From contig NZ_VRYH01000004.1 in NCBI RefSeq assembly GCF_008079445.1, positions 62,001-126,000 of the forward strand: 64,000 nucleotides of DNA, read 5' to 3'. Each line of letters starts with the position of its first letter. Within the stretch, counting starts at the first letter, position 1. The notes below the pieces were generated by a model that ran no database searches, had not been told where the DNA came from, and saw only the letters and a list, made by a program, of their open reading frames with translations. The translations under genes were made by a program, and so were the position numbers. Of the stretch, positions 26,562 through 31,010 are shown one piece after another. Origin of the DNA: Aidingimonas lacisalsi (GTDB lineage Bacteria > Pseudomonadota > Gammaproteobacteria > Pseudomonadales > Halomonadaceae).

Positions 26562-26638
26562 AGGACCATAGCTCAGTTGGTTAGAGCGCCACGTTGACAT
26601 CGTGGAGGTCAGCGGTTCAAATCCGCTTGGTCCTACCA
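26562..26638 (+). tRNA. tRNA-Val (GAC anticodon), first copy
   Basis: A 77-base gene folds as a full cloverleaf: acceptor AGGACCA paired with TGGTCCT, D arm with AGCTCAGTTGGTTAGAGC, anticodon stem CCACG/CGTGG with loop TTGACAT giving GAC, and T arm AGCGG-TTCAAAT-CCGCT. CCA is encoded. It reads valine codons GUC and GUU. Confidence 0.97.
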
Positions 26639-26670: not shown

Positions 26671-26747
26671 AGGACCATAGCTCAGTTGGTTAGAGCGCCA
26701 CGTTGACATCGTGGAGGTCAGCGGTTCAAATCCGCTTGGTCCTACCA
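26671..26747 (+). tRNA. tRNA-Val (GAC anticodon), second identical copy
   Basis: This is base-for-base identical to the copy 109 bases upstream over all 77 positions, including encoded CCA; the 32-base spacer is unrelated to flanking sequence. A hairpin terminator follows, so both are probably processed from one transcript. Confidence 0.97.
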
Positions 26748-26833: not shown

Positions 26834-27301
26834 CTACAGAGTAACGGTGAGGTCACTACGCCGAATGAATACATCGAGCACGTGTTCCAGGCCTGCCTGG
26901 TCGTGCACACGGAAGCGGCCCCGTATTGGACTATCAAGATCGAGAACGCCCCAAAGCGTGTCGTCGATGACGACCGGCACGACGAGTTCAGCTTGCGATT
27001 CCGGATCGCATGCGATGTGATCCGCGATGGCATGAACATCGTCGATGCGTTGCGTGCGGCGATGCCGAGCGGCTGCACCGCACACTCCCGTGTCGAAGGG
27101 GATGGGGTTGCAGGCTGGTTTGCCCTGGAACGGACCCAGCGACAAGCGCTGCGGCTCTCGCTGCACATAGAAACCCGCCCAATTCAGGTCAGGAACCTCC
27201 TGCATGATGAGTGCGCAGGTCTGTGCCATGTTGGTCAGGGCATCACGTGTATCGAGTAACGCGTCGAGTTGTCGAGCGAGAAGGTCGTAGTCAAGAGGCA
27301 T
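26834..27301 (-). CDS. msrC: Free methionine-(R)-sulfoxide reductase (GAF domain)
   Basis: fRMsr reduces free L-methionine-(R)-sulfoxide to methionine with thioredoxin. From the ATG at 27301, preceded by AAGGAGA, the protein has 155 residues and is one GAF domain. The three redox cysteines are at 64, 74 and 98, with the same spacing (10 and 24) as Cys84/94/118 of the E. coli enzyme, inside GPFQGKPAC, TGVCGAA and HIACDPES. An upstream in-frame start would add 59 residues unlike the family. It is last in the metN-metI-metQ-msrC unit, so methionine import and sulfoxide repair share expression. Confidence 0.92.
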   Translation of the reverse strand: MPLDYDLLARQLDALLDTRDALTNMAQTCALIMQEVPDLNWAGFYVQREPQRLSLGPFQGKPACNPIPFDTGVCGAAARHRRTQRIDDVHAIADHIACDPESQAELVVPVVIDDTLWGVLDLDSPIRGRFRVHDQAGLEHVLDVFIRRSDLTVTL

Positions 27302-27321
27302 GACATCTCCTTGAACGCAAT

Positions 27322-27343
27322 GAGCCGGCCCGGAGGCCGGCTC
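27322..27343. other. Strong hairpin between metQ and msrC
   Basis: GAGCCGGCC (27322-27330), tetraloop, GGCCGGCTC (27335-27343) gives a perfect 9-bp GC-rich stem 22 bases after the metQ stop and 21 bases before the msrC start. There is no T tract, so it more likely sets mRNA stability or partial read-through to msrC than full termination. Confidence 0.6.
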
Positions 27344-27365
27344 GTCAGCGTTTATGCTGGCAGTC

Positions 27366-28172
27366 TCATTCCCAGCCGGGAACGGCACCACCTTTGAACA
27401 GCTCTTTTGCTTTTTCGGCGACGGCTTCCGTTTGATACGCCTCGACCAATTGTTGAATGGCTTCACGGTCCTCGTCACCGTTGCGTACGACGATCAGGTT
27501 GACATAGGGAGAGTCGGGGCCCTCGCTGATTAGCGCATCGTCGAGCTGCAAACCGGCAGGCTGAGCAAAGGTGTTATTGATGAACGCCATGTCGACGTCC
27601 GGCAGAACGCGTGGAAGCTGTGCTGCTTCGATTTCGCGAAACTCGAAATCGTGTGGATTGTCGACGATGTCGATGGGGGTGGCCTCGAGATTGTCGGGAT
27701 CGTCGAGCTCGATCAGACCTTCCTTGTGCATCAGGATCAGGGCGCGCCCTTCGTTGGATGGATCATTGGGCAGAGCCACCGTGGCGCCTTCGGGAAGCTC
27801 ATCGATACTGTCATACGTTTCTGAATAGGCCCCGATCGGGTAAACGAACGTGTAGCCTGCAACCGCGAAATCATAGCCACGATCATCGATCATGCCTTGC
27901 ATGTAAGGTTCATGCTGATAGGCGTTGGCATCCAGGCTGCCATCGGCCAGTGCGGCATTGGGCGTCACGTAATCGGTGAATTCGACGATTTCCACCTCCA
28001 GCCCGTATTCCTCGTCGGCAATGTCGGCGGCCAATTGCATGATGTTGGTTTCAGGCCCAGCCACGGTGCCCACCTTGATGTGGTTGTCAGCATGGTCGGC
28101 CAATGCCGGAGCACTGATCATGCCGAGGCTCAGCAGCGCCGTCCCGAAAAGTTTGCTGGCAGTTGTCGTCAT
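27366..28172 (-). CDS. metQ: MetQ, methionine ABC transporter substrate-binding protein
   Basis: MetQ binds methionine in the periplasm and delivers it to MetNI. From the ATG at 28172 (AAGGAGA site) it has 268 residues; an open upstream extension has no family similarity. The NlpA-family core is clear: IKVGTVAGPETNIMQ, VEFTDYVTPNAALADGSLDANAYQHEPYM and VALPNDPSNEGRAL. The signal peptide ends APALA before Asp26 and has no lipobox cysteine, so the protein should be soluble, unlike lipidated E. coli MetQ. About 100 AT-rich bases separate it from metI and could hold a secondary promoter. Confidence 0.95.
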   Translation of the reverse strand: MTTTASKLFGTALLSLGMISAPALADHADNHIKVGTVAGPETNIMQLAADIADEEYGLEVEIVEFTDYVTPNAALADGSLDANAYQHEPYMQGMIDDRGYDFAVAGYTFVYPIGAYSETYDSIDELPEGATVALPNDPSNEGRALILMHKEGLIELDDPDNLEATPIDIVDNPHDFEFREIEAAQLPRVLPDVDMAFINNTFAQPAGLQLDDALISEGPDSPYVNLIVVRNGDEDREAIQQLVEAYQTEAVAEKAKELFKGGAVPGWE

Positions 28173-28272: not shown

Positions 28273-28926
28273 TCACTTGTGATCGCTCCGTCGCACCAGG
28301 TAATCCCCCAGGCTCTGGAAGCCTTGGACCATGACGACCAGGATGACGACGGTGATGAGCATGATGGTCGGTTCGAAACGGTTATAGCCATAGCGGATGC
28401 CAAGGTCTCCTAGACCTCCGCCGCCGACGGCCCCAGCCATTGCCGAATAGCTGACCAGCGTCACGACGGTGATGGTCAGCCCGGTAATGATGCCCCCGCG
28501 AGCTTCCGGTAGCAGCACCTTCATGATGATTTGCCACGGGCTGGCACCCATCGATTGAGCCGCTTCGATCAAGCCGGGAGAAATTTCGTTGAGCGATCCC
28601 TCCACGAGGCGTGCAACGAAAGGAATGGCCGCGATCGTCAACGGTACGACAGCAGCGTTGAGCCCGATGGAACTGCCGACGAGCATGCGTGTGAAAGGGA
28701 TGATCGCCACCATCAAAATGATGAAAGGCACCGAGCGCCCGATATTGGTCACGACGCCCAATAGATGGTTGAGGACGGGCAATGCCAGAAACTGTCGTGG
28801 CCGGGTCACATACAGCAATACCCCGAGCGGGATACCTGCCAGGGCGGCTATGAATCCAGAGACACCGACCATGTAGAGTGTGTCGAGTGTCGCGGCGAGG
28901 ATCAGTTCAATCATTGCGTTTGACAT
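28273..28926 (-). CDS. metI: MetI, methionine ABC transporter permease
   Basis: MetI is the inner-membrane channel subunit of the MetNIQ importer. It has 217 residues from the ATG at 28926, which sits nine bases after GGAGG; an in-frame TTG six bases earlier is possible. There are five hydrophobic helices, and the coupling EAA loop reads EAAQSMGASPWQIIMKVLLPEARGG in conserved form. It overlaps the end of metN by 20 bases, so the two are translationally coupled. Confidence 0.96.
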   Translation of the reverse strand: MSNAMIELILAATLDTLYMVGVSGFIAALAGIPLGVLLYVTRPRQFLALPVLNHLLGVVTNIGRSVPFIILMVAIIPFTRMLVGSSIGLNAAVVPLTIAAIPFVARLVEGSLNEISPGLIEAAQSMGASPWQIIMKVLLPEARGGIITGLTITVVTLVSYSAMAGAVGGGGLGDLGIRYGYNRFEPTIMLITVVILVVMVQGFQSLGDYLVRRSDHK

Positions 28927-29965
28927 GGCCAATCACCTCCACTTGCAGATCATGATTGTCGAGGTACGCCAGGGCTTCACGGGTTTTTTCCGCCGGGCCG
29001 ACCAATTCAGCGATCATCAACCCCAGCGTGCGGTGGCGAATCGATTCCACCTTGGCTTCCAGGATGCTGATGTCGATGTCGCAGTCGCGAGCGAGTCGTG
29101 AGATCAGCGGTGTGGATATCGAGTCACCGGCATAGGCTAGACGCAGTACGGGGTGTGCATCGGGCGCCGGGTCGGATAGCAACCTGTCGCGTAGGGACTG
29201 GGGCAGATTCAGCTCGAGGAAGTCATTGATGAAGCGTCGGGCCAACCGAGTACGCGGCGACGTGAAGAAATCGCCGACCTCGGCTTCCTCGACCAGCTCG
29301 CCGTCGGATATCAGGCTTACCCGGTGACAAATACTTTTCACGACTTCCATTTCGTGGGTGATCAGGAGAATGGTCAGCCCGAGTCGACGATTGATATCTT
29401 CAAGCAACGCCAGGATCGAACTCGTGGTCTGAGGGTCGAGCGCTGACGTCGCTTCATCGCATAACAGAACCTTGGGACGGCTGGCCAGTGCCCGGGCAAT
29501 GGCCACCCGCTGTTTCTGACCTCCCGACAGTTCCGCTGGATAGCTCTCCGCCTTGTCGGACAGACCGGTCAGTTCCAGTAATGGGTGCACGCGTTCACGA
29601 ATGGTTTCCCGGTCGACCTTCATGAGTTCCAGCGGCAAGGCGACATTGGCAAAGACCGTCCGCGACGTTAGCAGATTGAAATGCTGGAAGATCATGCCTA
29701 TGCCGTGGCGTGCGCGGTTGAGCGCAGCACGGTTCAATGTCGTCAGGTCCTGGTCATCGACGCTGACATGCCCTGTGGTCGGGCGTTCCAACAGGTTGAC
29801 GCAACGGATGAGGGTCGATTTGCCCGCACCGGATAAGCCAATGACACCGTGGATGCTGCCCTGGGGGATGTTCAGGCTGACATCCTTGAGAGCAGTGACG
29901 GCATTGGAGCCACTACCGTAAACCTTGGAGATATTGTCGAGGGCGATCATGATCCTGTTGGGCAT
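28907..29965 (-). CDS. metN: MetN, methionine ABC transporter ATPase with NIL domain
   Basis: MetN powers methionine import. From the ATG at 29965 it has 352 residues: an ABC domain with Walker A GLSGAGKST, signature LSGGQKQR, Walker B VLLCDEATSAL and H-loop THEM, then a C-terminal NIL (ACT-like) domain (about 265-345) that binds methionine and causes trans-inhibition in E. coli. A long upstream open frame reads through the riboswitch and is not coding. The gene therefore has two layers of control: SAM-sensing RNA and methionine-sensing protein. Confidence 0.96.
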   Translation of the reverse strand: MPNRIMIALDNISKVYGSGSNAVTALKDVSLNIPQGSIHGVIGLSGAGKSTLIRCVNLLERPTTGHVSVDDQDLTTLNRAALNRARHGIGMIFQHFNLLTSRTVFANVALPLELMKVDRETIRERVHPLLELTGLSDKAESYPAELSGGQKQRVAIARALASRPKVLLCDEATSALDPQTTSSILALLEDINRRLGLTILLITHEMEVVKSICHRVSLISDGELVEEAEVGDFFTSPRTRLARRFINDFLELNLPQSLRDRLLSDPAPDAHPVLRLAYAGDSISTPLISRLARDCDIDISILEAKVESIRHRTLGLMIAELVGPAEKTREALAYLDNHDLQVEVIGHVKRND

Positions 29966-30006: not shown

Positions 30007-30035
30007 AAAAAAAAGGCCACCCTGGTGGGGTGGCC
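30007..30035 (-). terminator. Attenuator terminator in the metN leader
   Basis: On the minus strand GGCCACCC pairs with GGGTGGCC and is followed by eight T. It lies between the SAM-II aptamer and the metN start, about 40 bases before the ATG, so it must be conditional for metN to be expressed. The GGGTG at the end of the aptamer can also pair with CACCC of the left arm, a plausible antiterminator. Confidence 0.85.
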
Positions 30036-30049
30036 ATCAACGCTGGACA

Positions 30050-30139
30050 CACCCTTTTAGCAGTATTTCCCGCACTGGGCAGTGTGAAGCGTGCCAGTAG
30101 CCGGGGGCGCCCGCAATCTGGGGACAAATCGGCGCCGAG
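30050..30139 (-). promoter_or_regulatory. SAM-II (SAM_alpha) riboswitch controlling metNIQ-msrC
   Basis: Read on the minus strand, GGCGC-CGATTTG-TCCCC-AGATTGC-GG-GCGCC is followed, after an inserted stem, by AAATACTGCTAAAAGGG. This matches the SAM-II core as I remember it from the metX aptamer: P1 CGCGC/GCGCG enclosing GAUUU and AUUGC, then AAAU-nnn-GCUAAAAAGGG for the pseudoknot. CCC of the loop can pair with GGG at the 3' end. The ~36-base insertion folds as CCCG/CGGG plus CTGGCA/TGCCCAG. A promoter lies just upstream and a U-tailed hairpin just downstream, so SAM should cause termination. SAM-V shares the core and is the main alternative. Confidence 0.85.
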
Positions 30140-30151
30140 ATTAATCGCACT

Positions 30152-30181
30152 ATTTTAAGAACCGATTCGGCGAAGTGTCAA
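30152..30181 (-). promoter_or_regulatory. Promoter of metN
   Basis: On the minus strand TTGACA (30181-30176) and TAAAAT (30157-30152) are 18 bases apart. A start near 30145 places the 5' end of the RNA a few bases before helix P1 of the SAM-II aptamer, the expected geometry. Confidence 0.7.
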
Positions 30182-30383: not shown

Positions 30384-31010
30384 ATGTTCACGGGGATCAT
30401 TCAGGGGATGGCCGAAGTCGTATCGATCATCGAGGACGAGGCCTTTCGCACCCATATAGTCAGGATGGATGACTACCTGCTGGAAGGGCTGGCGCTGGGG
30501 GCGTCCGTGGCCCACAACGGCGTTTGCCTGAGCGCAACGGCGATCGATGGCAATGATGTCAGCTTCGATTTGATGCGCGAGACGCTACGTGTGAGCAATC
30601 TCGGCACACTGCAAGTCGGCGACCGCGTCAATATCGAGCGGGCGGCTCGTTTCGGTGATGAAATCGGCGGGCATGCCATGTCGGGACATGTCTCTTGCAT
30701 GGCCACCTTGGTGGAGGTCAACAAGACACCCAACAATTTGCGTCTATGGTTCGAGCTTCCCGATAGCCAAGGGCGCTTTCTGTTCGACAAGGGGTACATC
30801 GGCGTTGATGGTATTAGCCTGACGATCGGCGAGGTGGTGGCTTCGAAACACGGGAGTATCCGCTTTTGTGTCAATCTGATTCCGGAAACCCTGCAGCGAA
30901 CGACCTTGTCTGAACGACGTCCCAATGATCGTGTGAACATTGAGATCGATCCCCAGACACAGGCCATTGTCGAGACGGTCGAGCGGGTCATGGCAAGGAA
31001 AAAGGGGTGA
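30384..31010 (+). CDS. ribE: Riboflavin synthase, alpha chain
   Basis: This enzyme dismutates two 6,7-dimethyl-8-ribityllumazine molecules into riboflavin and a pyrimidine. The 208 residues form the two internally similar lumazine-binding barrels: MFTGIIQGMAEV ... VAHNGVCLSATAI and DEIGGHAMSGH ... GVDGISLTIGE, with the closing NIEIDPQTQAIVETVERV. Length and motifs are those of the E. coli RibC/RibE form. It stands apart from the usual rib operon genes, which are not in this window. Confidence 0.96.
   Translation: MFTGIIQGMAEVVSIIEDEAFRTHIVRMDDYLLEGLALGASVAHNGVCLSATAIDGNDVSFDLMRETLRVSNLGTLQVGDRVNIERAARFGDEIGGHAMSGHVSCMATLVEVNKTPNNLRLWFELPDSQGRFLFDKGYIGVDGISLTIGEVVASKHGSIRFCVNLIPETLQRTTLSERRPNDRVNIEIDPQTQAIVETVERVMARKKG

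Follow-up and report, generated by a model that had tools for sequence, protein, structure and literature searches.

SAM-II riboswitches are usually found with intrinsic terminators (PMC2258182, PMC1273637). A 2014 survey of methionine regulation reported the SAM_alpha element in Rhizobiales and Rhodobacterales only (PMC4239095), and sporadic gammaproteobacterial cases of SAM-II were described in earlier work (PMC2258182). In the crystal structure of SAM-V, a helix P3 lies directly 3' of P1, with stacked adenines after it in the minor groove of P1; the same paper called P3 absent in SAM-II (PMC6061858). No paper linking SAM-II riboswitches with Halomonas was found in our literature search.

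The locus described here lies in a 64-kb stretch of DNA, the whole of which is called the window. In its leader (30181-30007, minus strand), a promoter precedes a SAM-II-like pseudoknot aptamer that contains one additional hairpin; a terminator with a U-tail comes next, and the genes downstream are metNIQ and one encoding a GAF-domain protein. The sequence evidence makes it very probable that the element is a genuine and widely conserved variant of the SAM-II riboswitch, which carries a P3 hairpin in loop L3 and represses metNIQ (and the GAF-domain gene) by attenuation.

The metNIQ leader

The preliminary description had given a promoter, a SAM-II core, an inserted stem and a U-tailed hairpin in that order, and every one of these parts was found on the minus strand, on which all features of this section lie unless stated otherwise. 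The sigma-70-type promoter (TTGACA-18 nt-TAAAAT, 30152-30181) matches 11 of 12 consensus letters, and a promoter of similar kind is visible in many relatives. Upstream of the promoter, a lumazine-binding (riboflavin synthase-like) gene runs divergently (30384-31010, plus strand).

Both strands of P1 read GGCGCC (30131-30136 and 30106-30111) and were placed using the RF00521 alignment and 63 relatives, in which P1 is 100 % paired and one pair shows a GC/AU exchange. Between them, on the minus strand, stands GAUUUGUCCCCAGAUUGCG. The L1/P2 5' side (30113-30130) is composed of GAUUUG, the loop CCC (30122-30120) and AUUGC, with P2a GC at 30114-30113; it is invariant or nearly so in the 63 relatives and agrees with the RF00521 consensus. 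The extra 37-nt hairpin, P3, occupies 30069-30105 within L3 and was recognized by covariation and by fold z-scores of the inserts in relatives. It is followed by the L3 adenines and the P2 3' strand, AAAUACUGCUAAAAGGGUG (AAAU...GCUAAAAGGGUG; 30050-30068), located through the RF00521 alignment of orthologues that lack P3.

The GGG at 30054-30052 is complementary to the loop CCC or, as GGGUG (30054-30050), to CACCC (30032-30028). The second pairing would form the antiterminator (30028-30054), which appears in the minimum-energy folds of most partial transcripts, and has the linker GUGUCCAGCGUUGA (30037-30050) on its loop side. The intrinsic terminator (30007-30035) has an 8-pair stem (30035-30015) and a T8 tract, and reads GGCCACCC-cacca-GGGTGGCC-T8 from 30035 to 30007. 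Downstream of the terminator, the leader is free to vary among relatives.

The element had been placed upstream of metNIQ, and the gene assignments agree with this. MetN, the methionine ABC transporter ATPase (28907-29965), matched TIGR02314 with an E-value of 1.3e-143; its 478.1 bits are below the curated cut-off of 499.7, yet far above all other families. The permease MetI (28273-28932; NF008049, 251.7 bits) and the substrate-binding lipoprotein MetQ (27366-28172; TIGR00363, 279.2 bits) exceeded their cut-offs. The last gene (26834-27478, with the true start probably inside this frame) matched the GAF-domain families PF01590 and PF13185 above cut-off and no NCBIfam family. We infer that it probably encodes free methionine-R-sulfoxide reductase (msrC). 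The window's genome yielded no MetJ gene, in keeping with an RNA regulator for metN. Just past the 3' end of the operon, two adjacent tRNA-Val genes (anticodon GAC; 26562-26638 and 26671-26747, plus strand) are present, which converge with the operon.

Relatives in the Halomonadaceae and the Rfam models

When the whole window was searched with Rfam at gathering scores, two tRNAs and nothing else were obtained. The preliminary description had proposed an Infernal search with RF00521 and with RF01826 (SAM-V), and had named the lack of a covariance-model hit as a reason to give up the assignment. At relaxed thresholds, RF00521 matched the window element at positions 10-42 only, with 14.1 bits against a gathering cut-off of 36, and no SAM_V match was obtained at E<=10. 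Over the window's own genome, RF00521 gave only matches at E of about 5 or worse, on a par with control genomes. RF01726 was likewise not among the matches listed for this stretch; genome-wide it gave nothing over its cut-off and two sub-threshold matches elsewhere. Low matches to Phe_leader, suhB, isrD and Betaproteobacteria_toxic_sRNA were also rejected, as all were below cut-off and all take in the terminator.

Since this outcome fell under the description's own rule for rejection, the element was tested in another way, through its relatives and a held-out model. A loose core pattern brought out this arrangement in many genomes of the family, where the reversed pattern was almost silent. 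A covariance model was then built from 63 elements taken from other genera, so that neither the window nor its genus contributed to it. This model scored the window element at 65.5 bits (E-value 3.8e-18), its sole match in that genome at E<=0.001. At E<=1e-6, it matched 231 of the 275 family genomes, in 20 of 24 genera, forms without P3 included. By named records the relatives belong to Halomonas, Vreelandella, Billgrantia, Chromohalobacter, Onishia, Modicisalibacter, Litchfieldella, Cobetia, Aidingimonas and Bisbaumannia, which we take to be Halomonadaceae. Among 108 elements inspected in full, 107 have metN directly downstream; for the remaining one (L115), in which the leader sequence gives way to a run of N, no metN was found.

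Two other arrangements were seen. In one Halomonas-like genus (g21), many genomes carry two tandem SAM-II aptamers about 110 nt apart (L006, L007, L011-L017, L020, L021, L024-L026, L028 and L029). Where inspected, the first aptamer is equipped with a separate terminator; downstream lie short ORFs, a gene for a 218-aa protein without a Pfam match, or a transporter gene of AzlC type. In addition, L062, L106, L108 and L110 retain the aptamer and P3 upstream of metN and have lost the conserved antiterminator and terminator, which may reflect translational action or decay.

Across the relatives the core is almost invariant and the inserted hairpin differs nearly every time. Among 100 elements, 98 distinct P3 inserts were counted (14-39 nt as measured), with a median fold z-score of -3.6 against shuffled sequences. 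In the 63 elements of other genera, all eight outer P3 pairs tested covary with changes on both sides. Double-changed cells numbered 140 compared with 37.8 +/- 5.2 in shuffled data, and 94.9 % of cells were paired; shifting the 3' partner by 1-3 columns makes the signal collapse. The pseudoknot P2 (loop C's and UUGC with the GCUAAA-GG strand) is complementary in 63 of 63 elements and shows no variation, hence no covariation signal either way. Antiterminator pairs likewise hardly vary within the family, and covariation is uninformative there.

Elements without P3 also occur at metN in sister genera and share the core, the downstream sequence and the expression platform. Their RF00521 scores were 47.8 (L005), 36.9 (L010), 29.6 (L018) and 25.4 bits (L100), the first two exceeding the cut-off of 36 bits, and none of 16 P3-bearing elements was detected in the same scan at E<=0.5. 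Thus, the RF00521 miss is most likely due to the inserted hairpin and not to a false element, and a SAM-II form carried by most genomes of one family escapes Rfam's model. Because the P3-less elements that pass RF00521 stand in the same place and share the platform, the window element is a SAM-II orthologue with P3 inserted in L3, and the SAM-II identity first proposed for it is upheld by this orthology. The window element itself has a P1 closing the GAUUU/UUGC loop, a promoter and terminator, and methionine genes downstream, as in SAM-II. Considering that P3 is present although the published contrast has SAM-II without it, the element was filed as a SAM-II variant and not as a typical member.

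In a MetN tree, the P3-bearing family rows form one group (84 % SH-aLRT) with the P3-less lineages outside, which requires one change of state; the tree is a quick one with some very long outgroup branches, and the count holds when two distant P3-bearing rows are set aside. P3 was therefore likely gained once within the family. Some distant Gammaproteobacteria also have hairpins at the same place in L3, ahead of genes resembling metN and metZ (L177-L191), and thus L3 seems to have acquired a hairpin on more than one occasion.

Proposed switching, ligand and linker

At low SAM, the aptamer's 3'-terminal GGGUG would pair with the 5' terminator arm CACCC, letting the polymerase read on. At high SAM, the ligand would sit between L1 and the pseudoknot helix, with GGG held by the loop CCC. 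The antiterminator would then be blocked, leaving CACCC to pair with GGGUGG and transcription to stop at the U-tract. P3 would be a passive hairpin in L3 that should leave the binding site untouched. The choice of GGGTG between the loop CCC and the terminator CACCC had already been pointed out for this locus, and it is conserved in the relatives. From the anatomy of the leader and the known SAM-II arrangement (PMC1273637, PMC2258182), we infer an OFF switch, in which SAM leads to termination.

Of 101 partial transcripts ending after CACCC, 97 had the antiterminator in their minimum-energy fold, and 96 of 101 full leaders had the terminator in theirs. Blocking GGG had a median cost of 6.8 kcal/mol. 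The window's own partial transcript has a minimum-energy fold without the antiterminator, and the fold with it is 1.9 kcal/mol higher. All these energies refer to nested folds, in which the pseudoknot cannot be represented.

SAM is the presumed ligand, and homology argues strongly for the function. Other riboswitch classes include variants whose aptamers have switched ligands, and the extra P3 shows a remodelled fold; the ligand here could have changed in the same way, for example to SAH, methionine or another compound. However, GAUUU, UUGC, GCUAAA and the GG strand are retained as in the RF00521 consensus, Rfam scores the P3-less orthologues in front of this gene as ordinary SAM-II elements, and the downstream gene is a methionine importer, so that a change of ligand is very unlikely.

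A SAM-V-type or translational switch, in which the aptamer would govern ribosome access and not termination, could be argued from P3, which stands at the place of SAM-V's P3 (PMC6061858), and from the few relatives that lack the terminator. However, the aptamer 3' end is about 85 nt ahead of the metN start with a strong terminator in between, the terminator pattern was seen in 94 of 100 relatives, and the SAM_V model found no match at E<=10; we regard this reading as extremely unlikely and retain attenuation as the mode of action.

Of 100 elements, 93 have exactly the same linker, as do five of eight P3-less siblings, and it stays near-invariant while the adjoining P3 changes freely. The CCA/UGG extension of the antiterminator is missing in some of the P3-less siblings (L018 and L100). 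The linker may serve as a site of pausing or of protein binding, or belong to an RNA that acts in trans. SAM-II leaders of S. meliloti are known to accumulate as small RNAs (PMC9373788). That precedent, together with a linker conserved beyond the apparent need of the antiterminator, could suggest that the terminated leader is the main product and acts in trans, with SAM sensing secondary or lost; but in the own genome only three sites complementary to the linker were found with one mismatch, about the chance level for a 14-mer, and the metN link in 107 of 108 elements with the entire core retained leaves this reading hardly credible. A riboswitch with an added role is a different proposal. Here the SAM-terminated leader would have a second function beyond metN attenuation, with the linker and P3 forming a stable small RNA derived from the riboswitch (or an element for pausing or for binding a factor), and P3 would be an evolutionary bridge between SAM-II and SAM-V. 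We consider this proposal as a whole improbable.

Comparison with known SAM-binding aptamers

The preliminary description had called SAM-II in a gammaproteobacterium notable. With the covariance model, SAM-II-like aptamers were detected in 136 of 369 sampled Gammaproteobacteria genomes (class as in the genome collection), so the occurrence as such is not exceptional. Judged by match length, most of these lack P3. In the subset inspected, the downstream genes were metK, metA, a metN-like ABC ATPase and a Cys/Met-metabolism enzyme resembling metZ/metY, in addition to one metX-like gene identified by eye. When 20 gammaproteobacterial loci were scanned, two passed the RF00521 cut-off, a fraction that is not representative as the loci were picked to include long-L3 forms. 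Several SAM-II-like aptamers with long L3 hairpins were seen among L177-L216, and most of those scanned are under the RF00521 cut-off.

For the Halomonadaceae (Halomonas, Vreelandella, Billgrantia, Chromohalobacter, Cobetia and others), metNIQ gains a likely regulator. The hundreds of natural sequences and their P3-less siblings provide a ready comparison for the effect of an L3 hairpin on a minimal aptamer.

SAM-II (SAM_alpha, RF00521; the metA element) has in common with the window element P1, the GAUUU/UUGC loop, the predicted pseudoknot with the GCUAAA-GG strand, the presumed terminator-type OFF arrangement and the methionine genes. The window element differs from it by the 37-nt hairpin in L3 and the low RF00521 score (14.1 bits against 36). 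Many gammaproteobacterial SAM-II leaders appear, from pairing by eye, to use GCUAAAG with a CUUUAGC-like terminator arm, whereas the window's antiterminator is GGGUG/CACCC. Another SAM-II form with enlarged loops is the SAM-II long loops family (RF01726) of Bacteroidetes and marine sequences (Weinberg 2010, PMC2864571), the likeness being one of name. The window element is not among the matches of that model, and the two were compared by model and name.

SAM-V (RF01826) shares with the Halomonadaceae element a P3 directly 3' of P1, then adenines and then the pseudoknot strand (PMC6061858), which weakens the structural contrast of a P3 in SAM-V and none in SAM-II. The two differ in that the window P1 has 6 pairs (4 in SAM-V), its P3 far exceeds the 3 pairs found in SAM-V, and it is joined to a transcription terminator while SAM-V masks a ribosome site. 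In Candidatus Pelagibacter ubique, SAM-II and SAM-V, which belong to the same group of SAM-binding pseudoknots, stand in tandem. Unlike this series of two aptamers, the window holds one aptamer, with a SAM-II body and a P3.
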